From: a virus
IMG/VR virus record: IMGVR_UViG_3300007541_000026
Span: 1-54,654 of that record
DNA length: 54,654 bases
Direction: 5' to 3' (one strand)
Under the pieces are notes generated by a model. That model searched no databases. It worked only from the letters and a program-made list of their open reading frames with translations, and had not been told where the DNA came from. The position numbers were made by a program, and so were the translations under genes. This document shows positions 2,147-54,077 of this stretch, piece by piece (position 1 is the first letter of the stretch; each line of letters starts with the position of its first letter).

Positions 2147-2175
2147 TAGAACTTTCTCGCATTTCGTGCTATAAT
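2147..2175 (+). promoter_or_regulatory. class A promoter before the portal gene
   Basis: A -35 TAGAAC (2147-2152), 17-bp spacer ending CGTGC, then -10 TATAAT (2170-2175). This is the only + strand member of a seven-copy family. It lies in the 128-base gap between TerL and portal, so it probably drives the structural operon. A second TATAAT at 2181 has no good -35. Confidence 0.75.
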
Positions 2176-2268
2176 ATGGGTATAATGGCGAATCCCGCCA
2201 TCCCGCCGTACATTACTATTGCAAAAAAATCGCGGCGGGGGCCAACTCCCCGGCAAGGAGGACAGACA

Positions 2269-3771
2269 ATGGCAACATTAGACGTGGCGCACCCGCTGTA
2301 TGAGGCATTCCGCCTCGATTACGACCAGATGGCGCATTGCTACGCAGGCAGCCGGGTCGTGAAAATGCACGGCACAAGGTACCTCCCCGCGACCCGCTCG
2401 ATGCTCATCGACGGCGGCCCGAATCTGGACCGCGAGCCGGGGAAATCTGCGTACGAGGCGTACAAGACCCGGGCAATCTTCCCCGACTTGGTCGGGAATG
2501 CCGCTCGGACTCTCACGGGGCTCGCCTTCAAGGACCCCAGCGTCTATGAGCTGCCTGCGGGCATGGAGGAGCTGTTCGACAGCGCCACGCTGGAGGGCGA
2601 ATCGCTCGAAACGCTGCACAGACGGATTGTCGAGCAGATTCTGATCTACGGGCGTTTCGGCCTCGCGATCGACGTGCCGGAGGGCGAAGGCCTCCCCTAC
2701 TTCGTCTCGTACGAAGGCCGATCCATTTTGAACTGGGACGATAGCCTTATCTCCCGCGGGCGACAGAACCCCTTCAACTTCGTTGTGACAGCTGAGGAGG
2801 TATTCCGCCGCAGCGACACGTACGACTGGACCACGGACATCCTCTACCGCAGCTTCGAGTTGCGGGATGGGGTGTACCAGACCTGGACCGAGGAAGACGC
2901 GCTCGTGACGTCTCCGGTGGCGCCCAGCTATCGGGGCCGAACGCTCGACTTCGTTCCTTTCACAATCATCGGGTCCCAAGACCTTAGCGCAACCCCCAAT
3001 CCAATCCCGTTGCTCGGGCTCTCCGAGTCCGCTCTGGCGATCTACCGCGGAGAGGCGGACTACCGGCAGGCTCTGCATCTCACCGCTCAGGACACGCTCG
3101 TTCTGATTGGTGTCGGGGATGGAACTGAGGACGACGACGACCAGCCGATCCGCGTAGGGGCCGGAGCCGTCGTGAGGCTTCCGCCGGACGGAGACGCGAA
3201 ATTCATCGGCGTGACCTCAGAGGGTCTCACTGAGCAGCGCCTAACATTGGGAGACGATTACCGAAACGCTTCGAGCGAGGGCTCGCGCCTTCTGGAAAAC
3301 ACGGCAGCACAGGCCGAGTCCGGTGAGGCGCTCAAGGTCCGAATCGCAGCGAAGACTACAACTTTGACGACAGTGGCTCTCACTGCCGCCTCCGGGTTGG
3401 AGCAGGCACTTCGACAAATGGCCCTCTGGGTGGGCGCTGACCCCAACGAGGTCCGCGTGAAGCCGAACCTAGACTTCACCCAAGACCATCTAGCGGCACA
3501 AGACGTGCTGAATCTGCAACAGGCTCAAAATGAAGGACTCCCGATTTCTGCACAGTCCATCCACGACAAGCTCCGCGACCGCGACTACACGGAGCTTACC
3601 TTCGAGGAGGAAATCGATCTGATCCGAAAGGAAAAGGCCGACGGGATCACCGAGTTGCTGAAGCCAGCTCCCCCGACTCCGGCTCTGGTGGCCGGGGTCG
3701 AACAACCGGGCGACGAGTCGACCCCTGCGGACGCGCAGGACGACGAGGAGCCCACGGGTGACGACGCGTAG
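2269..3771 (+). CDS. portal protein (DUF4055-like)
   Basis: A 500-residue protein directly after TerL. The N-terminal part, with YEAYKTRAIFPDLVGNAART and LTGLAFKDP, matches what I know of DUF4055-type portal proteins, which form the dodecameric ring at the head vertex through which DNA passes. The frame is open for 31 more codons upstream, but CAAGGAGGACAGACA puts a strong Shine-Dalgarno before the ATG at 2269, and the upstream residues look like leader. The tail is acidic and Pro-rich (DDEEPTGDDA). The family call comes from sequence character and synteny. Confidence 0.85.
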   Translation: MATLDVAHPLYEAFRLDYDQMAHCYAGSRVVKMHGTRYLPATRSMLIDGGPNLDREPGKSAYEAYKTRAIFPDLVGNAARTLTGLAFKDPSVYELPAGMEELFDSATLEGESLETLHRRIVEQILIYGRFGLAIDVPEGEGLPYFVSYEGRSILNWDDSLISRGRQNPFNFVVTAEEVFRRSDTYDWTTDILYRSFELRDGVYQTWTEEDALVTSPVAPSYRGRTLDFVPFTIIGSQDLSATPNPIPLLGLSESALAIYRGEADYRQALHLTAQDTLVLIGVGDGTEDDDDQPIRVGAGAVVRLPPDGDAKFIGVTSEGLTEQRLTLGDDYRNASSEGSRLLENTAAQAESGEALKVRIAAKTTTLTTVALTAASGLEQALRQMALWVGADPNEVRVKPNLDFTQDHLAAQDVLNLQQAQNEGLPISAQSIHDKLRDRDYTELTFEEEIDLIRKEKADGITELLKPAPPTPALVAGVEQPGDESTPADAQDDEEPTGDDA

Positions 3772-3783
3772 TCACCCTCCCTG

Positions 3784-3807
3784 CCCGGCCCCTTAGCGGG
3801 GGCCGGG
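3784..3807 (+). terminator. hairpin after the portal gene
   Basis: A 9-bp GC-only stem CCCGGCCCC/GGGGCCGGG with loop TTAGCG. It has no T run, so it is more likely an mRNA-stabilising or partial termination structure than a full terminator. Confidence 0.5.
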
Positions 3808-3905
3808 TGGGTACCCAACGATTTCAGCGGGATAACCCCGTAAGGCCGGAGGCATGTTGCCCGAGGCCGACCAGACGCGCATGATGCGCGAAAGGACAAA
3901 CGACA

Positions 3906-4730
3906 ATGCTAAAGCGAAGGATTACTTCACTCGAAGAGGCGCCGGAGGGTCTGGCGAAGTTTTACGTAGAGGACGGCGACGGATTCGCCCTAGAGATCGA
4001 CGGCCCCGGACAGGACGATGTCGACAAACTGAAGGCGGCACTCGCGAATGAGCGTGAAGCTCACAAAGCGACCAAGTCGCGGTTCAGCGGCGTTGACATG
4101 ACTGCGGACGAGATCCAGCAGCTCCGCGACGAGGCGGACGATCTCCGATTCCAACTGGAGAACGCCCCGAAGGCCCGCGATCCGCAAGAGATGGAAGACC
4201 GGGCCGAGCTGCTCGCGGCCCGCAAGACGCGCGAACTCGACCGTGAGCTTCAGGCCCTGCGGGAGCAGAACAGCTCCTTCAGCGAGGCCATCAAGCTGCA
4301 CGAGGCTGCCGCCAATCAGCGCATGCTGCGCGATGCGGCGATGGACGCGATCTCCGGCGACAAGGGCGTCAAGCTGGTCGACTCGGCCCGCGAGGATTTG
4401 ATCCCGTTCGTCGAGCGCAACTTCGAGACGAACGACCTCGGAGAGATCGTCTCCAAGGACGGAGTCGGGCTGGAGCCCGGGCTGACCATCCGAGAGACGC
4501 TGAACGAGATGCAGGCGTCGGGGCGACGCAGCCACTGGTTCGCCGGGAACACCTCCGCTGGCGCGGCGGGTTCCAAGGGCGGAGCCGCGGCAGGCGGCCC
4601 CAATCCGTTCGCGAAGGACACTTTCTCCATGACTGAGATCGGTAGGCTTGTCAAATCCGATCCCGCGCGAGCCAAGGCTTTGGCGAAAGCCGCTGGCGAG
4701 TCTCCCGCCAAGTTCGGACTGGGAAACTAA
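3906..4730 (+). CDS. capsid scaffolding protein
   Basis: A 274-residue, strongly charged, helical protein between portal and major capsid genes, the standard scaffold position. Residues about 60-150 look like a long coiled coil rich in Glu, Lys and Arg. A Gly/Ala/Ser linker (about 215-235) leads to a short C-terminal helical domain (TEIGRLVKSDPARAKALAKA), the part that binds coat protein in other scaffolds. I see no serine protease motif here or nearby, so assembly may proceed without a prohead protease. The start follows AAAGGAC. Confidence 0.8.
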   Translation: MLKRRITSLEEAPEGLAKFYVEDGDGFALEIDGPGQDDVDKLKAALANEREAHKATKSRFSGVDMTADEIQQLRDEADDLRFQLENAPKARDPQEMEDRAELLAARKTRELDRELQALREQNSSFSEAIKLHEAAANQRMLRDAAMDAISGDKGVKLVDSAREDLIPFVERNFETNDLGEIVSKDGVGLEPGLTIRETLNEMQASGRRSHWFAGNTSAGAAGSKGGAAAGGPNPFAKDTFSMTEIGRLVKSDPARAKALAKAAGESPAKFGLGN

Positions 4731-4747
4731 TCGCGCAACAGACTCAC

Positions 4748-5893: not shown

Positions 5894-5899
5894 TAGACT

Positions 5900-5930
5900 G
5901 AGGGGGCACTTCGGTGCCCCCTCTTTCTCT
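5900..5930 (+). terminator. intrinsic terminator after the major capsid gene
   Basis: GAGGGGGCAC-TTCG-GTGCCCCCTC, a perfect 10-bp stem with a stable UUCG loop, followed by TTTCTCT. It should end or thin out transcription after the capsid gene. Confidence 0.85.
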
Positions 5931-9272: not shown

Positions 9273-9305
9273 GGCCGGTGAGCCTAAATCACCGGCCCCT
9301 TTTTT
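9273..9305 (+). terminator. intrinsic terminator after the signal-peptide protein
   Basis: GGCCGGTGA/TCACCGGCC, a 9-bp perfect stem with a 7-base loop, followed by CC and six T. Confidence 0.88.
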
Positions 9306-12860: not shown

Positions 12861-12868
12861 TCCTTTTA

Positions 12869-12900
12869 GGGCGGCGGGGTTCGAACCCCGCCGCCCTTTT
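12869..12900 (+). terminator. intrinsic terminator between the two tail tube genes
   Basis: A 28-bp perfect palindrome: GGGCGGCGGGG, TTCGAA, CCCCGCCGCCC, then TTTT. It separates expression of the first tube gene from the second. Confidence 0.88.
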
Positions 12901-15385: not shown

Positions 15386-18300
15386 ATGGCAACGAATACA
15401 CACAAGGTCGTCATCTCCGTCTCCTCGATGGGTGCCGACAAGGTAACCAAGCAGATCAAGGGCCTCAAGATCGCGATGGCCGCCCTCGCTGCCACCGCCG
15501 CGGCGGTTGGCAAGGCGCTCGTCAACGCGACGGACGACATGACGAACCTCTCGAACAAGGCCAAGGTCTTCGCTCGGGACAACGCCGAAGCAGCGAACCG
15601 TATGCAGACGGTGGTCGCGGTTGCTCGGAAGATGCACATGCCCCTAGATGGCGTGGGCGACACCATGCAGCGGATCTCCATGTCGGCCGATCAGGTCGGC
15701 CTGAGTGGAGAGGGCGTCACGAAGATGGTGACGAACCTCGCGATGGCGGTCAAGCTGTCCGGTGCGACCTCGCAGGAAGCCACGGGCGCCCTGCGGCAGT
15801 TCGGTCAGGCCCTCGCGGCGAACCGACTGTCTGGTCAGGAATTGAACTCGATTCTGGAGCAGACCCCCATGATCGCCCGCGTGATCGCGGACTCAATGGG
15901 AGTGGCTGTCGGCGAGTTGCGCGCCCTCGGCAAAGAGGGCAAGATCACCGCAGAGGTGATGACCGACGCGCTGGGCGGGACGGTCGAAGATCTGGAGGAG
16001 AAGTTCAAGAAGTTCGAGTTCCCGATCTCAGATCAACTCGTCAGCATCCGGCGGGAAATGACGTTCCTCATGGACAGTATCTCCCGGTTCTCTGGGTTCG
16101 CTGATATGTCGAAGGGAGCGATCGGCGGGATGGTCGACTACCTGAACGACCTGAACCACGCGTTCGCCACGGGCGGCGAGATGGCCCAGAAGTTCATGAA
16201 GAACATCATGACCGCCTTCGATGTGTTCAAGGTGGCGGCAACCATAACCGTCGCTGGTCTGACAGCGATGAAGATTCAGGCGTTCCTCGCTGGCGAGGCG
16301 TTCTTGAGGTTCGCCAAGGCTGTTCGGACGTTCGGGCTTGCCACGGCCGTGCTGAGGCTCAACCCGGTGATCCTCGCGATGACGGCGCTGGGGGCGGTTG
16401 CCATGGCGCTCGTCCCGGCGCTGAACCGGGCCAGCGGCAAGTACGAGGATATGGTCGAGCCGATGTCCAAGCTGGAGCAGGCTCAGGCCGCTCTAGCCGC
16501 GCAGACCACAGGAGACGCGAAGGCGGTAAAGCGGTGGGCGGACACGTGGGGCGTCGCGGCCGAAGAGATCGAAGAGCACGCTCGGAAGTTGATGAATATC
16601 AGCATCGAAACGCAGGTCATGAAGGGCCAAGTGGGAGATGTGCAGTTCACCTACCAGCGCAAACTAGGGGAAAGCGCCGCAGAATCCTTCCGGCGAGGAT
16701 TCTCGGAGTCCATCGTGGCTCAGGATCTGATGGGTCAGATCGAGACGCTGACCAAGGGTCGCCTGCAATTCCTGGAGAACCTGCCGCAGAACGTCACTGG
16801 CGAGGCTATCCAGCAGGTTCTGGCGGTAATTGACCAGCAGATCTCGGCGGCGCAGCAGAAGCTCACTGGTATGCTCGACGCTGTGGAGCAGCGGGCCCAA
16901 GAACTGAACAAGGACGCAACGCCTCTGGCTGCGTTCAGCGATGCGGACATCAACAAACTGGCAGGGTTCTTGGAGGACTGGGACCCTGAGGAGAAGCTCA
17001 GGAAAGCCGAGAACGCGGCTGCGAACCTACAAGATCAGGTTGAAAAGCTGATCAGCAGCCAGACAAAACTGACCCGGGAACAGTCGATCAGCGCGCTCGG
17101 AGATCGCTACACACAGGCGATGCGGTCGATCAAGAACGCAGCCGGTGAGGCGTTCGAGACGATGCTGGATCTCGGCCAGATCGAACTCAAATATGACGAG
17201 CAGACTCAGGCCATCGAACTCCAAGGCGAGGGGTTGGCCCGGCTGAACGAGCTGCTGGCGAAGCACAACCTCACGGTCGACGAACTCGTCCAGTACCAAG
17301 AGGCCGCAACTGATGCGATCGACGATGCCGCAGAGGCTCAGAAGCGGCTCCAGTCAGCGGCTGACCGCACGGCGCGTGACATCCGCACGCTCAACAAGGA
17401 CCTCTCGACGGGGCTCGACCCCATGCGGGAGCTGGGTGAGCAGATCAAGAACCTTGAGACGCGGCTTCAGAACCTCGCGGACAAGGGGGTCGACGTCAGC
17501 GATCTGGTGGATCGCCTAGGGGAGTTTGAGCAATTCAGGGAGATGCAGATCCGCTTCGAGATCACAGGGTTGTCCGCAGCGTCTCAGTACGGTGCTGCTA
17601 TCCAAAAGATCAACGAGGAGATCGCGAAGTTGCAGGGGCTGTCCGGCACGGACGTCGGCCAGCAGATGGACCAACTCGGCCTCCAACGTGCCCAGATCAT
17701 GGGCAGCATGATGTCGGAGAACGCTCCGGGCTCCATGTTCGCAGAGGGCTTCGGTATCGAGTCGCAGTTCCAGCAGCAGCAGATGAATCTCGGACAGATG
17801 CGGGCCATCCCCGGCGTGGATCAAGAGACCATCGACCTGCTCATGGAGTACAACCAGCTTCAGCGCGACAACGAGATGGCCGAACTGGAGAACAAGACGG
17901 CCCTGTTCGAGATGAATCAGGGTCTGATGGACCAGACCTTGACCATGGGTGAACTCTCCGCAGGCGTCACGACCGCGATGGCGGAGGGGTTCGGGCAGGT
18001 TGCCAAGTCGGCCCTGGACCTGAGCAGCAATATCGCCAACTTCACCTCCACGGTGGTCGGCGGCTTGTCGAATGAGATCGCCACGCTCGCGACGACCGGC
18101 AAGGCCAACTTCAAGCAGCTCGGGGTTTCGTTCGTGCAGATGCTCGCGCAGATGATCATCAAGCTGACGCTCATGTTGGCGGTCATCACGGCCATCAGCA
18201 TGATCCCCGGCGGCTCGGCCGTGCTCCAGATGATGGGCATGGGAGCCGCCTCGGCTGGCGGAACAGCGGCGGCCGGAGTCGGTGCGGCTGGTGGCGGAGG

Positions 18301-18627: not shown

Positions 18628-18658
18628 GCCCCGGTCCACTTCGGTGGGCCGGGGCCCT
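18628..18658 (+). terminator. hairpin after the tape measure gene
   Basis: GCCCCGGTCCAC-TTCG-GTGGGCCGGGGC, a 12-bp stem with one G-T pair and a UUCG loop. The trailing bases are CCTTA, so termination may be partial. Confidence 0.6.
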
Positions 18659-18676
18659 TACCCCCGGAGATCCCTA

Positions 18677-28618: not shown

Positions 28619-28648
28619 AGCCCCGGGGGCCTTCGGGCCTCCGGGGCT
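28619..28648 (+). terminator. terminator-like hairpin after the tail tip gene
   Basis: AGCCCCGGGGGCC-TTCG-GGCCTCCGGGGCT, a 13-bp stem with one G-T pair, followed by TGG rather than a T run. It separates tail genes from lysis genes. Confidence 0.65.
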
Positions 28649-28660
28649 TGGAGGGCGCCT

Positions 28661-31720: not shown

Positions 31721-31749
31721 AGTATAGCACGGGGTGCTCATTTCTTCAA
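31721..31749 (-). promoter_or_regulatory. class A promoter before the metalloprotein/kinase operon
   Basis: -35 TTGAAG (31744-31749), 17-bp spacer ending CGTGC, -10 TATACT (31721-31726). The -35 lies inside the end of the helicase gene. Confidence 0.7.
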
Positions 31750-33836: not shown

Positions 33837-34154
33837 TCACGCCTGCTTCATGCAGAATGAGGCGGTGAGCATGAGCCCGACGCCGGTAATGGTCCAGCGG
33901 AGGTCTAGTCCCTCCTCCAGAACCATGTGAGAATTTACCACGCGCAGCACCGACATGGTGACTGTCCACGTGATCCACGCCGTCATCACGTTCGGCGCCT
34001 TGCTGAAAATCGAGTACAAGCAAAACTGCGCGACTATGATGAACGGAAACGCGTAGGCAATGTACTCCAGGAAGGTGTCCTGTGTTCTGGAGTACAGCTC
34101 GACTCTGGTGATACAGAGGGTTCCGATGAGGACCGCTGCCAGTGTTTGCCACAT
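33837..34154 (-). CDS. four-helix membrane protein, unknown function (105 aa)
   Basis: Four hydrophobic segments at about 2-19, 30-50, 55-74 and 85-102. AGGAGG precedes the ATG at 34154; the frame is open 21 codons further, but that part covers the promoter leader and hairpin. The first residues MWQTLAAVLIG resemble those of the 29-residue microprotein at 53,166 (MWETLAAIVGA). It could act in exclusion or membrane remodelling; no function is known. Confidence 0.7.
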   Translation of the reverse strand: MWQTLAAVLIGTLCITRVELYSRTQDTFLEYIAYAFPFIIVAQFCLYSIFSKAPNVMTAWITWTVTMSVLRVVNSHMVLEEGLDLRWTITGVGLMLTASFCMKQA

Positions 34155-34215: not shown

Positions 34216-34244
34216 ACTGTAGCACGAGAACTAGCTGCATTCTC
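34216..34244 (-). promoter_or_regulatory. class A promoter (weaker match) before the membrane-protein operon
   Basis: -35 GAGAAT (34239-34244), 17-bp spacer ending CGTGC, -10 TACAGT (34216-34221). It lies at the 3' end of the reductase gene. Confidence 0.55.
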
Positions 34245-38559: not shown

Positions 38560-39081
38560 CTACAGGAGGTCGTCCGTGTCGATCGCGCCGAACACGTCCT
38601 CGGCAGCGACCGCGCCGTCGAGGCGTGCGCCGTCACCGGCCTTCTGCACGTTGTCGAGGCCGATGCCGATGCCGCGGTTCCCGTCCGTGCTGTAGTAGAA
38701 CGCGTGGATCTGGAAGCGAACCAGAGCGCCGGGGTACAGCTCGTCCGCGACGTTCATGATCGGCTGGCGATCCGGGCCCACCACGCCGGGCTGGAAGTTG
38801 GACTTCGCCTCGAAGAACTTCGCGCCGTCGACGTACGGACCGCCGAGGTGCGACTTCTCCGCGCCGTCCCGCTGCATCGGGAGTCGGAGCGACTTCGGGT
38901 TGACGTCGGCCGGGACGAGCGTCTCGACCGCGGTCTGAATCAGACCCTCGATGACCGACACGTCCGTGCCGGGCGCGAAGACGATCGACGCGCTGAACTT
39001 GCCCTTCTCGTTCTTCGTGACGAGGGAGGGGAACGAAAGCGTTCCGACCGGGGTGATAACCTTGTTCGTTGCCTTTGCCAT
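38560..39081 (-). CDS. ssDNA-binding protein, Enc34 type (DUF2815)
   Basis: A 173-residue protein: VITPVGTLSFPSLVTKNEKG, KFFEAKSNFQPGVV, and ALVRFQIHAFYYS then GIGIGLDNVQKAG match the Enc34 ssDNA-binding family with its OB-like fold. The acidic C-terminus GAIDTDDLL resembles the protein-contact tails of other SSBs. AAGGAG lies 9 bases before the ATG. It is the first gene after the class A promoter at 39,136. Confidence 0.88.
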   Translation of the reverse strand: MAKATNKVITPVGTLSFPSLVTKNEKGKFSASIVFAPGTDVSVIEGLIQTAVETLVPADVNPKSLRLPMQRDGAEKSHLGGPYVDGAKFFEAKSNFQPGVVGPDRQPIMNVADELYPGALVRFQIHAFYYSTDGNRGIGIGLDNVQKAGDGARLDGAVAAEDVFGAIDTDDLL

Positions 39082-39135: not shown

Positions 39136-39164
39136 ATTATAGCACGCGCTCTCGGAAAGTTCTA
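39136..39164 (-). promoter_or_regulatory. class A promoter before ssb and polymerase
   Basis: -35 TAGAAC (39159-39164), 17-bp spacer starting TTTC and ending CGTGC, -10 TATAAT (39136-39141). Both hexamers are identical to those of the + strand promoter before the portal gene. Confidence 0.82.
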
Positions 39165-40481
39165 TTCGATTTCCGAGAAAGCCGCTATCGCCGGTTCGAC
39201 GGCCTTCCGTCGATCCGACTCGGGCGCCAGTGTGAGGGCGCCTTCGGGCTTGACCGACAGCTCCTCCACTTGCTCCTTGGACAGCGCACCGGATTTCTCC
39301 ATCTGCGCCGGGGACTTAGGAGAAACGGTCACTCCGCCCTCGTACGTCCCCTCGTCCTTCAGGCGGCCGAGGACCGCGTCCTTGTCCGCCCACTGCCTGT
39401 GGGTCACTTTCCTCACCAGCTTGAACCCAGGGATCGCCTGCGTCTTGGCTGCGTGATCCGCCATCTCTTGTACGCGATCCGCCCAGATCTTCACGACCTT
39501 GCCGATCTTCAGTGCCGCTGCGAGTTGAGTCGGGTCCGACGGGTCGGGCAAGATCAGCTCTACGTCCGGGATGTCCTCGAACTTCAAGGTTTCGAGATCG
39601 TCCGCGAACGCTTCCTGAGCGGCCCTCAGCGCCTCCTTCTGCATCAGAGGGCAAACACCAGCCGCCGGGCAGAACTCGCACCAACTGCCGACCTTGTACT
39701 CCGCGAGCGCAGGCACCTGCGTCGCCTTCACTGCGACCTTGAGCACATCGTCCACCCAAGCGAGCGTGTGGGCGACCGAGTACTCGCAGTCCGAGATCCT
39801 CCGGCCATCTGCAAACTCACCCCTCGGCTGAACGATGACCAGCTTGACCGTGGCGCCACCGTGTGTCGGGAACTCCTCGATCGCGCCAGCAGCGTAGAAG
39901 AGAGCCTGCGGGTTGCCAAGCGCGGACACCAGACGGTGCCCATACTTGAAGTCGAGGACCCAGAGATTGCCGCTGCCGTGGTCGAACACGACGCAGTCTG
40001 ATGTCCCGAACACCCGGTCGTCGTCGAAGATCGGATAGCAGACCGTCTCGGGCCGGATGGACACCTCCCCGGTACACTCTTCGATCGCTTCGATGACATT
40101 CACAAGATAGAACCGGACGCCCTCTTCCATCTCCTCGTCGCACACGAACACGTTGCCCGCCAAGTCGACATCGCTTTCGCCCGCCAGTGGCTGGCCTGTG
40201 AAGGGATTGTTTCCAACCACTTCCCAGTCACGGCTCTCTACAAGCTGGGCGATCCGAGTCCCGACGAGGGGGATGTCCAGTACGTCCCGTCGAGCATCGC
40301 CCAGCTCGACGATCTTCTGGACGCCCAGGTCCGCAAGTCGGTGGGCCGATGACCCCTCTTCCGCGGCTCTGGACGATCGGTTCTGAAGCGGGGGCGGGAG
40401 CGTGGCGATCAGCGACGGGCTCATCGTGCAATTCGCCCAGCGGTGCATCGCCGACGCCCCGACCAGAGAGTGCCTAGCCAT
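39162..40481 (-). CDS. RecB-like PD-(D/E)XK nuclease with Fe-S Cys (DUF2800)
   Basis: A 439-residue DUF2800-type protein. It opens with HSLVGASAMHRWANCTM (C18) and EEGSSAHRLADLG; the nuclease core has GTSDCVVFD (D162) and LWVLDFKYG (D177, K179). C268, C271 and C277 in SWCEFCPAAGVCPLM complete the four-Cys iron-sulfur cluster used by Cas4/AddB-type nucleases. It probably acts as an exonuclease in recombination or replication with the SSB. The ATG overlaps the end of the upstream gene by 8 bases. Confidence 0.85.
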   Translation of the reverse strand: MARHSLVGASAMHRWANCTMSPSLIATLPPPLQNRSSRAAEEGSSAHRLADLGVQKIVELGDARRDVLDIPLVGTRIAQLVESRDWEVVGNNPFTGQPLAGESDVDLAGNVFVCDEEMEEGVRFYLVNVIEAIEECTGEVSIRPETVCYPIFDDDRVFGTSDCVVFDHGSGNLWVLDFKYGHRLVSALGNPQALFYAAGAIEEFPTHGGATVKLVIVQPRGEFADGRRISDCEYSVAHTLAWVDDVLKVAVKATQVPALAEYKVGSWCEFCPAAGVCPLMQKEALRAAQEAFADDLETLKFEDIPDVELILPDPSDPTQLAAALKIGKVVKIWADRVQEMADHAAKTQAIPGFKLVRKVTHRQWADKDAVLGRLKDEGTYEGGVTVSPKSPAQMEKSGALSKEQVEELSVKPEGALTLAPESDRRKAVEPAIAAFSEIE

Positions 40482-40784: not shown

Positions 40785-41162
40785 CTACTCCCATTTGAAG
40801 TGGATGCCGAGCCTGTGAAGGTACGTCCCCCACACGCTCCGGCCTGCATCCACGCTTTTCCTAACCGCGTACATCGTACCACCGGTCTTCTCGGTCAGCT
40901 CCTTGAACGTGAACCCGGCGACCGCTTTCGACAAGTAGATCACCGCGTCGTCTCCCGATTCAAGGAACTCCGCGAATGCCCGCTTGAGGTCGAAGTTCAT
41001 GCACATATGGAGGTCGGCTTCACCCTTACTCCGGCTGCGCTGAACAGTGACCCCGAGCGGGTTCCCGCCCTCGTCGAACGTGCTGTACGCCTGCGCCGCG
41101 ACGTCTGACCCGTTGACCAGCTCGTACGCGACCACCGCCCACTCGTCTGTCGTTCGGATCAT
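40785..41162 (-). CDS. protein with possible C-terminal helix-turn-helix (125 aa)
   Basis: The N-terminal half is alpha/beta (EWAVVAYELVNGSDVAAQAY). The C-terminal half, FTFKELTEKTGGTMYAVRKS then VDAGRSVWGTYL, could fold as helix-turn-helix; this is a pattern guess. ATGA overlap with the primase stop gives coupled translation. It may be a replication-linked DNA-binding protein. Confidence 0.62.
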   Translation of the reverse strand: MIRTTDEWAVVAYELVNGSDVAAQAYSTFDEGGNPLGVTVQRSRSKGEADLHMCMNFDLKRAFAEFLESGDDAVIYLSKAVAGFTFKELTEKTGGTMYAVRKSVDAGRSVWGTYLHRLGIHFKWE

Positions 41163-43309
41163 CGCTTCACGACCCCCTGTGTCGGCAGCCCGCCGACGTT
41201 CCGGCGGCCACCGCGCCAGCCCATCGGCTCTCCGACAGCTTGTACCGCCCGAGACAACCGACGAACGTCAGCCTGATCGGACTGGCCCGGAAGCTGCGAC
41301 AGCACGTTGAGCAGAAGCTCGTCGGTCGCCACGAAGTCCACGCCGTCCTTCTCCGCTTGGCTCAGGACCATCGCGAGTTTCGTCTCGATCGGGTCGTACA
41401 ACCGACGCTGTGACTGCTCTTCCGCCGCCACGCCCCACAAGGACTCGTCCAGCATCAGCGCCTGCTCGGTCGGGTTCGTTCGCCACATGCTCAGGGCCTG
41501 CGCCCAGATCTGATCCCGGTCATCCCGGATCTGCTCCAGAGCCACAAACTCGACCGCGATTGGAAGGAACCGTCGGTTCCCAGTGCTGTCGAGCAGGTAC
41601 TGAGCATCGTTCGTCGTACCGATGAACACGCACTGCCGCGGATACTCTTTCGCTTCTCGGGCGTAGGCGAACCGCGCCTTGTCAGACGTCCTAGACAGGA
41701 ACGCCTTGATCGAATCAATCTCTCCTTTCCTCATGACTGCCAGCTCCTCGACCTCGACGAGCCAGTGGCCTTGGATGGCCTGGATGACATCCTTGTTATT
41801 CAGATCGGCCTTGTTGGGCAGACCTTCGAGGGCGAACTCGCCTCCGAGGATCTGGATCAGGGTCGACTTGCCACATCCCTGAGTGCCCTCCAGCACGACC
41901 ATCGTGTCGAACTTGACTCCCGGCCGGTAGACTCGGCCGATCGCCGCCTTGAACATGACCTCCGCAACCGCCGTGGCGTACGGAGTCGGCTGGGTCCCGC
42001 AGTACCGAGTGAAGAACTCGGAGATGCGGTCATGCCCATCCCACTCCAGCTTGTTGAGGTAGTCCCGGATCGGGTGGAACTGGTTCTTGAGCGACAACGC
42101 GGAGATAGCCTCCGAGACCTGCTGGATGCTGGGCTCGAACCTATACTTTTCCGTGATCGCGGAGCGCACAGCGTGGAGTACATCGTCGTCAACGATGCCG
42201 GACACGCTCGTGTGGTGCTCCGTCAAGTCGCTCAGGTTCCCGTCGAGGTAGTTGGTGTCGGTCAGCAGATTCCTCCTGACTGTGATCCCCATGTCCTCAA
42301 TCGCCACCCTCACGTTGTAGACCGTCCTCTTCGGCCTGTTATTGCCATCCGCCTCGAACTTCGGCTTGAGTTTCTCAAGCTCAAGGGCCTTCGCGTCCTG
42401 TTCCGTCAGCCCGACGTCGAACGCCTCTTCAGGCCGCTCGCGGATCAGGTCTCCGTGGCCTCGGTCGATCACCTCCTTGAACAGCGTGCCCGCCGAGATC
42501 CCCGTCCCTTGGAATGAGTCCCAGCGGTCCCCGATCAGCTCTGCGTGGTCTGCATAGTCCTCGTCCTGTGTCGACCATGCGATGAACGCCTCCCGGCCCA
42601 AGCCCCCGGTCGCTGCGTGGCATGACATCGCCAAGCGGAGCCAGGATTCATTATCGTTGAACTCCGTCGGGTCGATCGTCGCCAGCATCTCTTCGAGTTG
42701 GTCGACGGTGATCTCCCGGTCGATCTTACTCGGGTCGACGTCAGGCTTCCGCAGCGCCGTCAGGAGCTTGACCGAGACCTCCGGTGTACTGCTCATCGCC
42801 CCAGAATCGGGCGTGGGCGAGTAGTACGTTCCGTTCGGATGCCTCGACCCCGAGGCGACGACCTGACGTCCCAACCCCTTGAACTCGACTCCGGGCAAGA
42901 CCTCCAGCTCGTTTCGCAGCTTGATGCCGACCCAGTCCGCGGGCACCCGCAGGTAAATATGAAGTCCGCCGGAGCCTGTGCTCACAATCGGAGCGCCGTC
43001 CGTGGTCATGCCGAACTCACCGCGGAGGAAGGCAATGGCCTCATCCAGAGACCGATCCATGTTCCGCGGGTCCATGTCGACCACGAGATCCCGATCGGTG
43101 AGCCGAAAGCCCAGATTGCAGCCCGCCTCGATCGCCGAGGTCAGTGCCGCCGAGGAGTACCCCTTGGTCCGCCAGTCGTTGTCTCTCGGGGACTTGCCGC
43201 GCTCGCGGTCACGATTGTCCCGGAAGTCCCAGCGATTCAGCGGGATCAACTGGTCGACCTTCTCGCCGTAAAACCCCAGATTCTCTTCCTTGAAGACAGC
43301 TCTCGTCAC
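41159..43309 (-). CDS. bifunctional prim-pol primase and VapE/VirE-type helicase (GTG start)
   Basis: A 716-residue fusion. The N-terminal prim-pol domain has catalytic D78 and D80 (LVVDMD) and H117 (SGGLHIYL). A PriCT-like linker follows (about 205-280; ESWLRLAMSCHA). The C-terminal superfamily 3-like ATPase has Walker A LEGTQGCGKST (473-483), Walker B HWLVEVEEL (515-523), sensor FIGTTNDAQYL and arginine finger GNRRF (577-581). It primes and unwinds at the phage origin. AGGAGG lies 5 bases before GTG. It is the first gene after the promoter-palindrome at 43,333. Confidence 0.92.
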   Translation of the reverse strand: MTRAVFKEENLGFYGEKVDQLIPLNRWDFRDNRDRERGKSPRDNDWRTKGYSSAALTSAIEAGCNLGFRLTDRDLVVDMDPRNMDRSLDEAIAFLRGEFGMTTDGAPIVSTGSGGLHIYLRVPADWVGIKLRNELEVLPGVEFKGLGRQVVASGSRHPNGTYYSPTPDSGAMSSTPEVSVKLLTALRKPDVDPSKIDREITVDQLEEMLATIDPTEFNDNESWLRLAMSCHAATGGLGREAFIAWSTQDEDYADHAELIGDRWDSFQGTGISAGTLFKEVIDRGHGDLIRERPEEAFDVGLTEQDAKALELEKLKPKFEADGNNRPKRTVYNVRVAIEDMGITVRRNLLTDTNYLDGNLSDLTEHHTSVSGIVDDDVLHAVRSAITEKYRFEPSIQQVSEAISALSLKNQFHPIRDYLNKLEWDGHDRISEFFTRYCGTQPTPYATAVAEVMFKAAIGRVYRPGVKFDTMVVLEGTQGCGKSTLIQILGGEFALEGLPNKADLNNKDVIQAIQGHWLVEVEELAVMRKGEIDSIKAFLSRTSDKARFAYAREAKEYPRQCVFIGTTNDAQYLLDSTGNRRFLPIAVEFVALEQIRDDRDQIWAQALSMWRTNPTEQALMLDESLWGVAAEEQSQRRLYDPIETKLAMVLSQAEKDGVDFVATDELLLNVLSQLPGQSDQADVRRLSRAVQAVGEPMGWRGGRRNVGGLPTQGVVKR

Positions 43310-43332
43310 TATTTCCTCCTCTCGTTCAATAA

Positions 43333-43364
43333 GGGCTCACCATACATTATAGCATGGTGAGCCC
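43333..43364. repeat. perfect inverted repeat around the -10 of a class A promoter
   Basis: GGGCTCACCAT (43333-43343) and ATGGTGAGCCC (43354-43364), 11 bp each with a 10-base centre that contains the -10. It is a candidate operator or, as RNA, a hairpin ending the upstream gene. It changes the usual CGTGC to CATGC. Confidence 0.7.
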
Positions 43365-43374
43365 CTATTTTCTA
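43346..43374 (-). promoter_or_regulatory. class A promoter before the primase-helicase gene
   Basis: -35 TAGAAA (43369-43374), 17-bp spacer ending CATGC, -10 TATAAT (43346-43351). Confidence 0.8.
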
Positions 43375-43375: not shown

Positions 43376-45037
43376 CTACGCGCGCCACTTCCCGTCGATG
43401 ATGGGGAGTAGCTGCCGTTTGCCGTTCGCGTGGATAACGCAGTGGCAGTGGAGCCAGCTCGACGGCCCATTCAAGTACTCCAGATCCATCCTCGAACTCG
43501 TCCCAACCTGCCAGCATCCGCCGACGATCCCAGGTGCGTGCGAGTGGCCGATGACCGTCTTCGCGCCGATCTTCGACAAGTTGTTCCGAGACCCACGCGA
43601 GCCATTCGGGCCGCTGTGTCCATGTTGGCTGACGTCGATGTCGTGGATCATAAAAGCGCGCTTGCCGCTCAGGAACTCGATGGACCCCTGCTGGCCGAAG
43701 TAGCCCTCTGCGTACGCCTCGAACGGGTTGACTGTCGAGACGCCCGTCTCGTGCCTCTCCGCTGACAGCAGCACCTTCACCATCAGCTCGTGGTAGAGCA
43801 GGGTGTTCTCGGGGGTGACCCCACGCTCGCCGCCCGCGAGCCATTGACTCAGGTGGTTGTTGTGGTTCGACGAGACAATCAGATTCGTGAAGTCACCGAC
43901 CGTCGTCTCCGCTATATGATCCAATGTGTCCTCGATCTCCTTCCGCAGATCGCCCCATCCGAAGAGGGCCTTGTTCCGCTGGATCAAGGCGTTCCCCTCG
44001 TGGTGGTGCGAGACGCTGTAGCAGTCCAGAACGTCGTGACGCACAACGTACTCTGGGCAACCGACTGCGACCATCGAGTCAGCATCCATGTAGGTGGCCG
44101 CCTTGACCTTCTGGTCGACGAACCACGCGTGCTCGTCCCCGGTCACCAGCGCCGACCACCGAGGCGCGTCGTTCGCGCCCGAGGCCGTGTACTGCCTGTC
44201 GATGTCGATGAATGACTCGCCGTCCCACGTAACCGACCGAAGGAACGTCCGGCTCTTGCGGTCCTGCTCGACGATGATCGCCGCCATCGAGTGATGGAAC
44301 TCCGCGAGGTTGCCCGACTTCGTCGTCGAGTAGTTCGGGACCGTGACCGCGCCCGTGCTGTAGAGGATCTTCGGGAGATTCTCATAGAGCGTCGCCACTG
44401 TCTTCATCGCCAACTGGGTCGCGCCGTAGATCCCGTGCTTCATCCCCGAACGAGCGTCGAGCCCGGTCAGCGGGTTGCCGCTCGTGGCCGCGATCCGCAC
44501 GTCCGGGATCACCACGTCCTTCAGCTCGATCTCATCGTCAACAAGGTACGCGGCCAGCGCCGGGTCCCACCACATGCCTTCCGGCACCTCGTGCTCGGGC
44601 ACGACGTTGCTCGTCGGGTTCTTGTAGCGAATCGGTCGGACGATGATCTCTGCCTTGTTCTCCGCAGCGTAGTTCTCCAGCGCCGCGAGGAACTCCGCGT
44701 CGACCGGGGTGTTATTCTGCGCCGCAGTCACGATCCAGCGCCGAGCCCTGCGAATCGCCTTGGCGCGCGAGCGCGTCAAGCTGTGGCACTCCAGGCGGTC
44801 GGCCACAGGCGGAGCCTCGGCCACCAGCACGCGCCGCTCCATCCCGTGCGCCTTCAGATGGCGCACCAGTGAAGGTTCGCTCGTGAAGGGGAAGCCGTGC
44901 TCCTGCTGGAGGCGATGTAGGAAATCGAGCACCGACGTCGGGTCTCCGGCCTTGCGGTCCTTGATGAACCGCAGAACCGTAGCCTGCGCCGCTTTGTTAT
45001 TGGCGAACCATTCCGCCATGCTTGAGCCTCGACTCAT
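43376..45037 (-). CDS. A1-like calcineurin-type metallophosphoesterase (553 aa)
   Basis: The N-terminal 75 residues look like a helix-turn-helix domain (WFANNKAAQATVLRFIKDRK; EPSLVRHLKAHGMERR). The C-terminal 260 residues carry metallophosphoesterase motifs: GDEH (300-303), D335, SNHNNH (390-395), HGHSG (472-476) and GHSHAPG (497-503). From memory, size and layout match the T5 A1 family, whose founder is needed for host DNA degradation and second-step DNA transfer. That role is known for T5 only; here it is inferred. The start overlaps the pentapeptide gene stop (ATGA) with GGAGGA upstream. Confidence 0.75.
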   Translation of the reverse strand: MSRGSSMAEWFANNKAAQATVLRFIKDRKAGDPTSVLDFLHRLQQEHGFPFTSEPSLVRHLKAHGMERRVLVAEAPPVADRLECHSLTRSRAKAIRRARRWIVTAAQNNTPVDAEFLAALENYAAENKAEIIVRPIRYKNPTSNVVPEHEVPEGMWWDPALAAYLVDDEIELKDVVIPDVRIAATSGNPLTGLDARSGMKHGIYGATQLAMKTVATLYENLPKILYSTGAVTVPNYSTTKSGNLAEFHHSMAAIIVEQDRKSRTFLRSVTWDGESFIDIDRQYTASGANDAPRWSALVTGDEHAWFVDQKVKAATYMDADSMVAVGCPEYVVRHDVLDCYSVSHHHEGNALIQRNKALFGWGDLRKEIEDTLDHIAETTVGDFTNLIVSSNHNNHLSQWLAGGERGVTPENTLLYHELMVKVLLSAERHETGVSTVNPFEAYAEGYFGQQGSIEFLSGKRAFMIHDIDVSQHGHSGPNGSRGSRNNLSKIGAKTVIGHSHAPGIVGGCWQVGTSSRMDLEYLNGPSSWLHCHCVIHANGKRQLLPIIDGKWRA

Positions 45038-45807
45038 CTCATATCCTCCTCCGTGAAGGGGTCATTCCAGATCATCCCCTGTTGGTTTGCTTGGGCCATG
45101 CCCCAATTCTCGGTGAAATCATGGTTCTGGAAGTTCGCATCGCTGAAGTCCGCCCCCACGAGTTCCGAGAACTCGAAGCAGCTCGACTCCGTTCTGGCAA
45201 ACCTACACCAAGACGACCGGAGGCTGCACCGCCGCACGACCAGTCCCGTGAACGCGGTCCGGCTCAGGACCGCCTCCGGTAGGTCGCATCTGTCGAACAG
45301 CACGTTCGTGCCCGCGGCCATTTCCAGAGAAATTCCGCCCATCTCGCACATCGTGAACTTCGCGTCTGACAGCAGCGACTCATCCGCCATCATCTGCGCC
45401 GCGGTGTTCGACATGATGCAGCTCCTGAATCTGGATCGGTGCAAGTTCGAGTACGACCAGTCCGACCCGACCATCACGCAGCCGATGAACGTGCAGCCCT
45501 TCGCTTCCGCTTCGGACAGGCACGAATCATGGAGGCCACAGGTCTCGAAGGTGGACTCCGAGAACTTCGCGCCCTTGGCTCGCAACCTCTGGAGGTTGCA
45601 ACTGTCGAAGTGGCACCGCGAGATCTCCGCCCCGTCCAGCCACGCGCCATAGAAGCTACAATCGAGGAATGTGACGTCCCGGATCTCGGCCCACCGCAGG
45701 TCCGCTCCATGGAAGTCATATCCGACTATCGTGATCCGCTCGGGCCACTCGCGCACCCCCGAGTCGAGGATCGCGTCGACCCGTCCTTTGTCGACAATCT
45801 CAGACAT
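45034..45807 (-). CDS. pentapeptide-repeat protein 1 (257 aa)
   Basis: From about residue 35 to 235 it repeats a five-residue pattern centred on Leu or Phe (DFHGADLRWAEIRDVTFLDC, KGAKFSESTFETCG), giving a right-handed quadrilateral beta helix. It is rich in Cys and Phe, unlike the three Leu-type copies at 51,421-52,929, so it is not a recent duplicate of them. Some members of the fold mimic DNA and bind gyrase. GGAGGAG lies 5 bases before the ATG. Its start is overlapped 82 bases by the upstream gene. Confidence 0.82.
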   Translation of the reverse strand: MSEIVDKGRVDAILDSGVREWPERITIVGYDFHGADLRWAEIRDVTFLDCSFYGAWLDGAEISRCHFDSCNLQRLRAKGAKFSESTFETCGLHDSCLSEAEAKGCTFIGCVMVGSDWSYSNLHRSRFRSCIMSNTAAQMMADESLLSDAKFTMCEMGGISLEMAAGTNVLFDRCDLPEAVLSRTAFTGLVVRRCSLRSSWCRFARTESSCFEFSELVGADFSDANFQNHDFTENWGMAQANQQGMIWNDPFTEEDMR

Positions 45808-47250: not shown

Positions 47251-47429
47251 CAGCGGAGCCCCGCCTGCGCTATCCGCATATCGTGGATGGTGGTCTCTAG
47301 GCGACTGTGAACCCGGTGCAGCTTGTGAAGCTCCGCCGTGAGCCCCTGCGTCGCAGCGCGCTCGATGTGCAGCTTCGTTTGATAGAGCAGGCGCTCCAGC
47401 TCCTCGGCAACTCGTTCAGCGTGATTCAC
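47250..47429 (-). CDS. small coiled-coil protein (59 aa, GTG start)
   Basis: Helical throughout (AERVAEELERLLYQTKLHIE; ELHKLHRVHSRLETTIHDMR), probably dimeric. The GTG at 47429 has GGAG about 9 bases upstream and overlaps the previous gene by 14 bases. No function recognised. Confidence 0.6.
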   Translation of the reverse strand: MNHAERVAEELERLLYQTKLHIERAATQGLTAELHKLHRVHSRLETTIHDMRIAQAGLR

Positions 47430-47619
47430 CGTTCGTCTCTCCTCTGATCGCCCGCAGTCTATCATCGAGGCTCGGCTTGTATCCGGGACGCAGCCCGTCG
47501 TTCCAGTCAGCGGTCACGTAGCCCTTCGCGGACAGCATGGCCTTCAGCCCATCATCGTTCTTTTTCTCGCTCGTGAACCGCACCCAGCCGCCCGCGAGGT
47601 ACGCCCAGACTCTGCCCAT
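47416..47619 (-). CDS. small protein, unknown function (67 aa)
   Basis: Not recognised. MGRVWAYLAGGWVRFTSEKK opens a small alpha/beta protein with a basic C-terminal helix. AGGAGG lies 6 bases before the ATG. It is the first gene of the operon driven by the class A promoter at 47,638. Confidence 0.65.
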   Translation of the reverse strand: MGRVWAYLAGGWVRFTSEKKNDDGLKAMLSAKGYVTADWNDGLRPGYKPSLDDRLRAIRGETNGESR

Positions 47620-47637: not shown

Positions 47638-47666
47638 ATTATAGCACGGAGGCTATTGTGATTCTA
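47638..47666 (-). promoter_or_regulatory. class A promoter before the 47-43 kb operon
   Basis: -35 TAGAAT (47661-47666), 17-bp spacer ending CCGTGC, -10 TATAAT (47638-47643). One of the two best family members. Confidence 0.85.
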
Positions 47667-48019: not shown

Positions 48020-48625
48020 CTAGTTGAGGATTTCGCGCTCGGCTTCCGCCCTGATCTGTGCGACGCGCTGGAAACTCAGCCCGACCGTCTCCGCGATCTG
48101 CTTCAGCGTCTTCGGCACGTCGCCGTCGAAACCGTAGTACAGGCTGACCACCTGCTGGTGCTTCTCCGACATTGTGCTCAGGCGAGCGAGCACATACTCG
48201 CGCATCAGGCTGCGTTCTGCCAGATCGTCAGGTCGCTCCAGGGCGCACGCCGGGTCGACGAAGCCCTCCTCACCGGAGGTCGCTGCCGGGACCAGTACAG
48301 GGCGATCCTCGTCGTCTGAGCGGTCGTTGATGGCCCGGTCGAGTACGCGACTCTTCTGGACCGCTCGCCGGACGTGGTGCGTGACCCACTGGGTCGCGAT
48401 CGTTGTGAACCGGCCCTTGTCCGGGTCGAACTTGCCTGCCGCGACCATGAGCCCCTCGATCGCCTCCTGCCGGAGATCGTCGAAGTCGACATCGTTGCCG
48501 CGCCACTTGTTCGCGATGAAAAAGGCGAGGCGCAGGTTCCGGGTGACCAGCTCGTCGCGCGTGGCCTCTCGCTCCTCTTCCGAGGTCATCAGCTTCATGC
48601 TCTTTGCTTCGTCGTAATCGAACAA
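48020..48625 (-). CDS. phage sigma-70-family factor (201 aa, TTG start)
   Basis: Region 2 is clear: RNLRLAFFIANKWRG, DFDDLRQEAIEGLMVAAGKF and TTIATQWVTHHVRRA, for -10 recognition and core binding. Region 4 is SEKHQQVVSLYYGFDG and TLKQIAETVGLSFQRVAQIR, for the -35. An acidic linker replaces region 3, as in group 3/4-like sigmas. AGGAGG lies 7 bases before TTG at 48625, which starts the protein MFDYDEAKSMKLM; upstream codons in this frame cover the leader. It is probably made early and redirects host polymerase to phage promoters. The leader contains a large inverted repeat. Confidence 0.85.
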   Translation of the reverse strand: MFDYDEAKSMKLMTSEEEREATRDELVTRNLRLAFFIANKWRGNDVDFDDLRQEAIEGLMVAAGKFDPDKGRFTTIATQWVTHHVRRAVQKSRVLDRAINDRSDDEDRPVLVPAATSGEEGFVDPACALERPDDLAERSLMREYVLARLSTMSEKHQQVVSLYYGFDGDVPKTLKQIAETVGLSFQRVAQIRAEAEREILN

Positions 48626-48646: not shown

Positions 48647-48720
48647 GGCCGGGGAGCCCTCGCGGCCTGCGCCGTCTTTTTCAGTTTTTTGGCTACCTTG
48701 CCCTCTCGGGCTCCCCGGCC
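48647..48720 (-). promoter_or_regulatory. structured leader of the sigma factor gene
   Basis: GGCCGGGGAGCCC (48647-48659) and GGGCTCCCCGGCC (48708-48720) form a perfect 13-bp stem enclosing 48 bases rich in A runs and small GC helices. It begins about 10 bases after the predicted transcript start and ends 8 bases before the AGGAGG of the sigma gene. No known riboswitch class was recognised. Confidence 0.65.
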
Positions 48721-48737: not shown

Positions 48738-48766
48738 ACCTTAGACGGGAACTTTAGGGTTGTCAA
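48738..48766 (-). promoter_or_regulatory. sigma-70 type promoter of the sigma factor gene
   Basis: -35 TTGACA (48761-48766, full consensus), 17-bp spacer, -10 TAAGGT (48738-48743). Distinct from the class A and B families, so likely read by the host polymerase. Confidence 0.6.
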
Positions 48767-51244: not shown

Positions 51245-51245
51245 G

Positions 51246-51428
51246 TCAGTCCTCCTTCAGCCGTCTCGCCAGCTCGCTGCACGCCGTCCCGAGAGACATC
51301 CCTGTCTTAGCGGGCCTTCCGCCACTCCAGATTTCCCATGCGAATGTTTCGTTCATCGCATCGCGCTTACGGCGCAGCTCGTAGTCGCCCGCTGCGAGCG
51401 CGATGTCGCTCCCACTCATGTTAATCAA
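51246..51428 (-). CDS. small protein, unknown function (60 aa, TTG start)
   Basis: Not recognised. [20 protein letters not shown] then [20 protein letters not shown], a short alpha/beta protein. AGGAGG lies 6 bases before TTG (51428); an ATG 9 bases later is the alternative. It overlaps the pentapeptide gene end by 8 bases and leads into thyA. Confidence 0.6.
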
Positions 51429-51918
51429 GTCGGTCCTCCTTTCTCGGCGGCATGAGATCTCGCCTCTCGCGGAGACGAGTGCCCTCTAGGTTCGACCCAC
51501 GGAGCTTCGCGCCGCTCAGCTCGGCTCCGAGAAGGTCTGCCCCGCGTAGGTCAGCGTGGCGAAAGTCCGCTGCACGGAGGTCGGCATGGCGGAGACCCGC
51601 AACAACGAGGTCCGCGCTGCGGAGGTCCGCGCTGCGTAGATCTGCGCAGCAGAGATCTGCGTTAGTTAGGCTCGCATAAGAGAGATCAGCCCATCGGAGG
51701 TCTGCGCCGCGGAGGTTCGCGCCGCGGAGGTCGGCGTGCCTCAGAGTGGCTCCTCTCAAGGTCGCCCCAGCGAGATCCGCGCGTCGCAGATCAACTCCAG
51801 GTAGGTACATGCCTTGTAGGTCCGCGGCGCCGAGGTCTGCGTATCGGCCCCCCTCGGCGTTGTCGAGGAACAGCCTGTGCCGCCTGAGGATCTCATCCAG
51901 TTCGTCTTGGTCCATCAT
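51421..51918 (-). CDS. pentapeptide-repeat protein 2 (165 aa)
   Basis: An N-terminal cap [17 protein letters not shown] is followed by about 22 Leu-type pentapeptides ([20 protein letters not shown]), forming a right-handed beta helix with negative charge, and a basic tail ([16 protein letters not shown]). The cap is shared with copies 3 and 4. The helix size is close to that of gyrase-binding MfpA/Qnr proteins, but a gyrase role is only a possibility. AAGGAG precedes the ATG. Confidence 0.85.
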
Positions 51919-51942
51919 GTTGTCGCTCCTTTCTGCTACCCT

Positions 51943-52425: not shown

Positions 52426-52449
52426 TCTGTTACTCCTTTCTGCTCCCAT

Positions 52450-52929: not shown

Positions 52930-52933
52930 CTCC

Positions 52934-53152: not shown

Positions 53153-53165
53153 TCTATTACTCCTC

Positions 53166-53255: not shown

Positions 53256-53518
53256 CAGAGGTAGGCCCCGCCCGAGCCGATCTCTTCGCCCTCAGCCTTC
53301 TGGCTCGCCTCGTACGCCTGCTGCTTCACGCACTGGGGGTCTCCGCAGTCGCAGGGCTCCAGCTTGCCGAACTCGCCGCTCGCGGCCTTGGACAACACCA
53401 TCTGCTTCAGGACCGCCTCCAGAGCCGTGAGCATCTCGCGGACCGTCGCCTCCAGCTTCTCGACTCGCTTCTCCAGCTCCTCGCCACCGCTCTCCGTAAT
53501 CGTCACATTGATCGCCAT
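53255..53518 (-). CDS. small coiled-coil protein with Cys cluster (87 aa)
   Basis: Coiled coil at about 10-45 (EELEKRVEKLEATVREMLTA), then CDCGDPQC (C56, C58, C63), a possible metal site. AGGAGG lies 6 bases before the ATG. Not recognised. It stands between a lipoprotein gene and the microprotein and is coupled to both. Confidence 0.65.
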   Translation of the reverse strand: MAINVTITESGGEELEKRVEKLEATVREMLTALEAVLKQMVLSKAASGEFGKLEPCDCGDPQCVKQQAYEASQKAEGEEIGSGGAYL

Positions 53519-53521
53519 ATC

Positions 53522-53809
53522 TCAGTCCTCCTTGTGCTCGGTGCAAGCCACCGAGATGCTTCCGTCGTCGTTCGCCACCAGCTTTGCGGACGCCGTGCCC
53601 GCCGGACAGACGTCCTCGATGATGCTGAGCGGGATCGGCCCGTTCAGCTCGTGGGTCCCCGGCGACCCGCAGGCCACCTGCGTGCGGTTGTCGAGATCGA
53701 CGATCCGCGCCCCGTCGGTGCAGAGGCCAGTTACTGCGGCCACCTGATGCGTCGCGCAGCCCGCCGTTGCCAAGATGATGCCCGCGAGGGCCGTCGTGAA
53801 GAATTTCAT
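53522..53809 (-). CDS. lipoprotein (95 aa)
   Basis: Signal MKFFTTALAGIILATAGCAT with lipobox TAGC (Cys 18). The mature part has four more Cys (LCTDG, ACGSPG, VCPAG, ACTEH), likely two disulfides, and is otherwise Ala/Gly/Asp-rich. AGGAGG lies 6 bases before the ATG at 53809. Made early near the right end; an outer-membrane superinfection-exclusion role is possible. Confidence 0.72.
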   Translation of the reverse strand: MKFFTTALAGIILATAGCATHQVAAVTGLCTDGARIVDLDNRTQVACGSPGTHELNGPIPLSIIEDVCPAGTASAKLVANDDGSISVACTEHKED

Positions 53810-53825
53810 GTCTGTCTCCTCCTTC

Positions 53826-54026
53826 TCAGTTGAGCGCGTCAATCGCTCGGTCCATGATCCCAGCGACTGCGTCGCGCAGATCGTCCCCTTCGCCGGGGAA
53901 GCAGAGGTCGATCTCGGCCATCAGTCTATCTGCCCGTCGGAAGATCTCCCGAATGCCGTCCCTGTCCTGATCCTCTACAAAGAATCCCAGCTCCTCGTCC
54001 ATGCTCCGAATCTCGTTCTCAAACAC
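53826..54026 (-). CDS. small acidic protein, unknown function (66 aa, GTG start)
   Basis: Not recognised. Acidic and helical (EELGFFVEDQDRDGIREIFR; DDLRDAVAGIMDRAIDAL). AGGAGG lies 6 bases before the GTG at 54026. It is the first gene after the class A promoter at 54,049, whose transcript would start about 15 bases upstream. Confidence 0.62.
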   Translation of the reverse strand: MFENEIRSMDEELGFFVEDQDRDGIREIFRRADRLMAEIDLCFPGEGDDLRDAVAGIMDRAIDALN

Positions 54027-54048
54027 CCTGTTCCTCCTCTCTCTGTGC

Positions 54049-54077
54049 ATTATAGCACGGTTCGCCAAATCATTCTA
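54049..54077 (-). promoter_or_regulatory. class A promoter near the right end
   Basis: -35 TAGAAT (54072-54077), 17-bp spacer ending CCGTGC, -10 TATAAT (54049-54054). Hexamers identical to the promoter at 47,638. Confidence 0.85.

Follow-up and report, generated by a model that had tools for sequence, protein, structure and literature searches.

The window analysed here is the entire IMG/VR virus record IMGVR_UViG_3300007541_000026 (54,654 bp), a partial siphophage-like genome of 61.6% GC. It carries a family of seven promoter-like sites with a distinctive -35 box, together with a gene encoding a phage sigma factor of 201 amino acids. The plus arm (157-29744) is structural and includes the genes for TerL (482-2140), portal and tape measure (15386-18619), while the minus arm, from 29954 to the right end, is devoted to replication and nucleotide metabolism (helicase, ribonucleotide reductase, DNA polymerase, single-stranded DNA-binding protein, exonuclease, primase/helicase and thymidylate synthase). 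The features of the promoter family and of the sigma gene are listed below; the sites are named by their plus-strand starts (2147 to 54049), also when they lie on the minus strand, and their sequences are given on their own strand.

2147..2175, plus strand: promoter TAGAAC-N17(CGTGC)-TATAAT, before the portal gene (start 2269) and directly after TerL; TAGAAC-TTTCTCGCATTTCGTGC-TATAAT
31721..31749, minus strand: promoter TTGAAG-N17(CGTGC)-TATACT, before gene 31455-31700, overlapping the helicase 3' end; TTGAAG-...CCCGTGC-TATACT
34216..34244, minus strand: promoter GAGAAT-N17(CGTGC)-TACAGT, before gene 33837-34154, overlapping the ribonucleotide reductase 3' end; GAGAAT-...TCTCGTGC-TACAGT
39136..39164, minus strand: promoter TAGAAC-N17(CGTGC)-TATAAT, before the single-stranded DNA-binding protein gene (38560-39081); TAGAAC-...GCGCGTGC-TATAAT
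43346..43374, minus strand: promoter TAGAAA-N17(CATGC)-TATAAT, before the primase/helicase gene (41159-43309); TAGAAA-...CACCATGC-TATAAT
47638..47666, minus strand: promoter TAGAAT-N17(CGTGC)-TATAAT, before gene 47416-47619, just downstream of the sigma gene; TAGAAT-...CTCCGTGC-TATAAT
54049..54077, minus strand: promoter TAGAAT-N17(CGTGC)-TATAAT, before gene 53826-54026, in an operon reading toward thyA and the sigma gene; TAGAAT-...AACCGTGC-TATAAT
48020..48625, minus strand: phage sigma factor of 201 amino acids, with regions 2 and 4 and no region 3 seen; TTG start after AGGAGG
48647..48720, minus strand: strong hairpin in the sigma messenger RNA leader, just before the ribosome-binding site; 13-bp stem GGCCGGGGAGCCC / GGGCTCCCCGGCC, then CUUUAU (z -3.95)
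48738..48766, minus strand: candidate host-type promoter TTGACA-N17-TAAGGT upstream of the sigma gene, with the only exact TTGACA in any gap

All seven sites have 17 bp between the boxes, a CRTGC extended -10 element and [T/A]GAA at positions -34 to -31. The TGC that precedes each -10 box corresponds to the TGn of host sigma70 extended -10 promoters. By contrast, the family lacks the TTGACA-like -35 box of such promoters: A is found at -31 in all seven sites, and T at -34 in one of them only. An earlier note on this DNA had described these boxes, the 17-bp spacers ending in CGTGC (once CATGC) and a shared departure from TTGACA, with members on both arms and before operons, and all of this was recovered in the window. 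Only site 2147 reads on the plus strand, the other six reading on the minus strand. The -10 box ends 94, 21, 62, 55, 37, 19 and 23 nt before the called start codon, in the order of the list (19-94 nt), so that every site falls within 120 nt upstream of a start, where about 7% of strand positions qualify. In several cases the -35 box overlaps the 3' end of the preceding gene.

The note had also asked for a matrix built from the sites, in search of equal matches elsewhere, and none was found in the window. With a matrix covering the boxes and CRTGC, the seven sites score between 23.5 bits (34216, the weakest member) and 32.1 bits, while the next window site with the same spacing reaches 9.4 bits; at random, 8e-4 sites of at least 23.4 bits are expected per window. 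When each member was left out in turn, scores were 17.2-31.1, against 7.8-10.4 for the best non-family site, every member remaining above all non-family sites. The pattern CRTGCTAYAVT occurs seven times in the window, and these occurrences are the seven sites. Taking the -10 element as the selection, the probability of [T/A]GAA at -34 to -31 in seven of seven sites is ~3e-17 (from base composition, uncorrected for motif choice). The window thus holds a promoter family that differs from the host consensus, lies before phage operons and is found nowhere else in the genome. Spacer interiors share a mean identity of 0.25, against 0.26 by chance, which rules out a recent duplication of the seven sites; the boxes are therefore held by selection rather than by recent copying. 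A generic promoter and terminator scan of the window gave no more matches than in shuffled sequences and detected only two of the seven sites. Scanning IMG/VR with the motif pattern returned a single AT-rich, unrelated match, and no close copy of the promoters was found this way. Among the matches listed by a looser scan of genome contigs, most came from low-GC genomes, and that scan was not informative.

Three sites show additional local features. A second TATAAT (2181-2186, plus strand) lies 11 bp downstream of the -10 box of site 2147 (TATAATATGGGTATAAT), without a matching -35 box. At 39150-39178 (minus strand), a perfect 9-bp inverted repeat (TCTCGGAAA / TTTCCGAGA), not common to the other sites, brackets the -35 box of site 39136. 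Finally, a 16-bp inverted repeat (94%) at 43328-43369 (minus strand) has a 10-nt loop holding the -10 box of site 43346; this repeat could also terminate the upstream gene, in which case promoter and terminator may overlap.

The 201-residue sigma named in the earlier note proved to be a genuine member of the sigma-70 family, with a core-binding and -10-reading region 2 and a -35-reading region 4. It matches PF04542 (3.6e-12), PF04545 (1.3e-7), TIGR02937 (2.1e-25) and phrog_351 (8.8e-30), in agreement with alignments to sigma structures from the PDB, and it is the only transcription factor recognised among the minus-arm proteins scanned. Aligned to bacterial SigA, its region 4.2 reads LSFQRVAQIRAEA, versus VTRERIRQIEAKA in primary sigmas, and its recognition helix reads LSFQRVAQ, versus VTRERIRQ in sigma70. 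In E. coli numbering, R584 is replaced by F, E585 by Q and R588 by A, while Q589 is kept. In sigma70, R584 and E585 contact positions -31 and -33, and an R584A mutant is reported to prefer A:T over C:G at -31 (review, PMC2613000). By homology, the change of R584 to Phe, alongside A at -31 in all seven sites, would be the most specific link between the protein and the motif. A structure model of the sigma from the single sequence was poor (mean pLDDT, the predicted local distance difference test score, of 55; region 4 block means of ~70-90) and was not used for any claim.

We then compared the sites with those of related phages. Searches for related loci with the window polymerase, a TerL alignment and the sigma returned little; relatives were found with hand-made degenerate patterns, a polymerase motif giving 19 IMG/VR records and a TerL pattern being used as well. 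The closest polymerases among the 19 records share 63% (G006), 56% (G011), 53% (G003) and 51% (G001) identity with that of the window. None of the 19 has a match to sigma-70 region 2, in a search where the control genomes behaved, and tblastn of the window sigma against eight contigs gave nothing credible. The region that holds the sigma gene in the window, upstream of the DNA-transfer and pentapeptide genes, is represented in both G011 and G001. Replication-arm promoters of the relatives generally consist of TTGACA-N16..18 with a GC/TGC-TATAAT-type -10: TTGACA-16-TATAAT, TTGACA-16-TGCTATACT, TTGACA-17-TATAAT and TTGACA-18-TGCTATATT in G011, TTGACA-16-TGCTATAAT before the polymerase gene in G003 and G001, and TTGACA-17-TGCTATAAT and TTGCAT-17-TGGTACAAT elsewhere in G001. 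Before the primase, the same gene as at site 43346, G011 has TTGCGC-17-TGATATACT. T at -34 is present in eight of eight relatives' sites versus one of seven in the window (Fisher P = 0.0014, on a small and partly related sample), and A at -31 in one of eight versus seven of seven (Fisher P = 0.0014, the sites not being fully independent). In addition, the 17-bp spacing and C-17/R-16 are fixed in the window and not in the relatives. By this comparison, the window lineage keeps the -10 box and differs from phages without a detectable sigma by T-34 to A and C-31 to A.

Strict positional orthology holds for few sites, namely the primase site (in G011) and the TerL-portal site. In two contigs with closer structural genes (L001 and L177; TerL 76-77%, portal 69%), the TerL-portal gap holds GTTACC-N17-TATGC-CATAMT, with yet another -35 box; it reads GTTACC-N17-TATGC-CATAAT or CATACT at L001:2041-2125, at L177:6086-6170 and in L176, of the same phage type. 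GTTACC represents a third -35 class, which may point to another recogniser in this clade. The gaps of G006 that match sites 34216 and 31721, which are also the weakest family members in the window, hold no promoter of either kind. The more distant G014, G005 and G002, and the portions of PaMx28 and NP1 that were scanned, yielded neither class of promoter as a strong site at the cut-offs used, and these genomes therefore do not inform the comparison. The earlier note had looked to conservation in related phages, and here the outcome goes against it: the motif sequence is not conserved, the portal promoter keeps its position with a different -35, and two sites are missing from the sister contig G006.

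A dedicated recogniser for the family is nevertheless well supported, because the -35 box is conserved far beyond chance and is unlike the TTGACA of relatives without a detectable sigma. This part of the note's proposal stands, whereas the identity of the reading protein falls short of proof. The phage sigma is likely to be the reader, and on balance we favour, by a modest degree, the seven sites as cognate promoters of this sigma acting on the host core polymerase. The following scenario, including the reader of the sites, the sequence of steps and a host-type promoter for the sigma gene, is an inference. Host polymerase with the housekeeping sigma would start at host-type promoters, among them the candidate directly before the sigma gene and possibly others beyond the record's ends. 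The 201-residue sigma would then join the host core; TAGAAY at -35 would be read by its region 4, and the CGTGCTATAAT element, at exactly 17 bp, by its region 2 and adjoining residues. This would switch on seven operons, six for replication and nucleotide metabolism on the minus arm and one, structural and led by the portal gene, on the plus arm. As site 54049 reads toward the sigma gene, positive feedback could also occur.

Several observations weigh against assigning the sites to the phage sigma. The -10 box stays a near-perfect extended -10, as in the relatives, whereas other phage sigmas read very different -10 elements (tAATGTAtA for phiEco32, aCTA for 7-11; PMC8948821). Region 2.4 of the phage sigma is altered at -10-reading positions (Q437 to H and T440 to R by alignment), and region 3.0 (H455/E458), the reader of TG, is not visible. 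At the -35 box, A at -34 has no residue-level explanation, and changes of E585 to Q and at R588, which are known to loosen recognition of -33, would predict less constraint than the invariant G-33 seen here. Because the searches turned up no relative that carries this sigma, motif and sigma are seen together in the window only. The relatives without a detectable sigma lack the motif. As for the sigma gene itself, about 0.9 exact TTGACA are expected by chance in the gaps (3486 gap bases, both strands) and the -10 box TAAGGT is poor; the host-type promoter before it is therefore only suggestive.

The chief rival is sigma appropriation, in which host sigma70 would use TGC-TATAAT while another phage DNA-binding factor on the TAGAA box replaces region 4. 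T4 middle promoters work in this manner through MotA and AsiA; they pair a very good sigma70 -10, in many cases preceded by TGn, with a phage box that takes the place of the -35 at a fixed distance (PMC2988021). The window has the same architecture, a sigma70-type -10 being kept with a phage-specific -35 box at fixed spacing, and region 3.0, which would read TG, is not visible in the phage sigma. On the other hand, TAGAAY sits exactly where sigma region 4 binds, the -31 change fits the R584 position of the phage sigma, and C-17/R-16 are fixed in the window and not in the relatives. Moreover, no MotA- or AsiA-like family was recognised among the minus-arm proteins scanned, most of the small ones having no family, which leaves room for a divergent homologue. 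We regard this rival as unlikely, yet as one to be taken seriously.

Ordinary host promoters are a less probable explanation still. Here the housekeeping sigma would act on the extended -10 alone, the resemblance between -35 boxes being due to a host sigma or a host regulator. TGnTATAAT can indeed act without a -35 box (reviewed in PMC2613000 and PMC2988021). An unread -35 box would drift, yet [T/A]GAA is fixed in seven of seven sites, and relatives have TTGACA in promoters at similar gene positions. Furthermore, R584, E585 and Q589 are conserved in primary sigmas across the taxa compared (PMC8407463), which makes a host sigma preferring A at both -34 and -31 unexpected.

A further, very improbable reading takes the TAGAA box as an operator that overlaps the -35 of host promoters and is conserved because a repressor or timing protein silences them through it. 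In its favour, conservation of the box does not depend on the spacer interior, and sites 39136 and 43346 have their own inverted repeats. Against it, no palindrome over the -35 is common to the sites, no flank is conserved beyond the promoter elements, the proteins scanned included no recognisable repressor or integrase, and all seven sites have exactly 17 bp between box and -10. A register of the extracytoplasmic function (ECF) type (GAAC ... CGT) was also considered and rejected; the gap from GAA to CGT is 13 nt here, and ~16 nt in ECF promoters.

If the phage sigma is the reader, a more tentative proposal is that a set of host-sigma promoters moved to it by changing essentially only the -35 box (T-34 to A, C-31 to A), the host-type extended -10 being kept. 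Together with R584 to Phe, this would be a case in nature where specificity for the -35 evolved separately from that for the -10, leaving promoters still partly readable by host sigma. It would provide a compact sigma/promoter pair that differs from the host mainly at -35, with relatives in the ordinary TTGACA state, and a natural case for checking the residue-to-base rules of sigma region 4. It would also explain the timing of replication and structural genes in an uncultured phage lineage.

Regarding the rest of the genome, the window polymerase is 40-42% identical to those of Pamexvirus and Bradleyvirinae phages, and the portal 37-41% identical to those of Nipunavirus and others. No transfer RNA was found in the window. 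The record ends open, with the last minus-strand gene running off the right end and no end repeats, so early promoters may be missing from it. Strong terminator-like hairpins lie between structural genes of the plus arm (5900-5923, 9273-9297, 12866-12900, 18630-18670 and 28620-28655); no promoter is visible after them, which suggests read-through, antitermination or RNA processing. Pentapeptide-repeat proteins are encoded on the early arm (45034-45807, 51421-51918 and neighbours, minus strand).

Several known systems come close. The host-type promoters of G011, G001 and G003 share the gene module, the GC/TGC-TATAAT-type -10 boxes and the short distances to genes; they differ by their TTGACA -35 box and 16-18 bp spacing, and no sigma-70 family gene was detected in these relatives. 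T4 middle promoters likewise combine a consensus -10, often with TGn, and a phage-specific box in place of the -35 (PMC2988021). However, the T4 box, (w)(w)(w)TGCTTtA, is centred at -30 and lies 12 +/- 1 bp from the -10, whereas TAGAAY is 17 bp away; T4 encodes AsiA and MotA, neither of which was recognised among the scanned minus-arm proteins of the window, where a sigma gene is present. In phiEco32, gp36 (tAATGTAtA; PMC8948821) is likewise a phage sigma that directs host core to middle and late promoters, but these are single-element promoters without a -35 box, and gp36 has no region-4 homology. Phage 7-11 belongs to a different virus lineage and also has a phage sigma with region 4 (SaPh711_gp47), which uses host core at two-element late promoters before operons, GTAAtg-(16)-aCTA, as well as a hairpin in front of the sigma gene and oppositely transcribed arms (PMC8948821). 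Both elements of the 7-11 promoters are unlike sigma70, whereas the window departs only at -35 (and at -17/-16) and has a consensus extended -10. A phage sigma with its own promoter class is thus already known as a kind, and the change centred on the -35 box is the unusual feature here.

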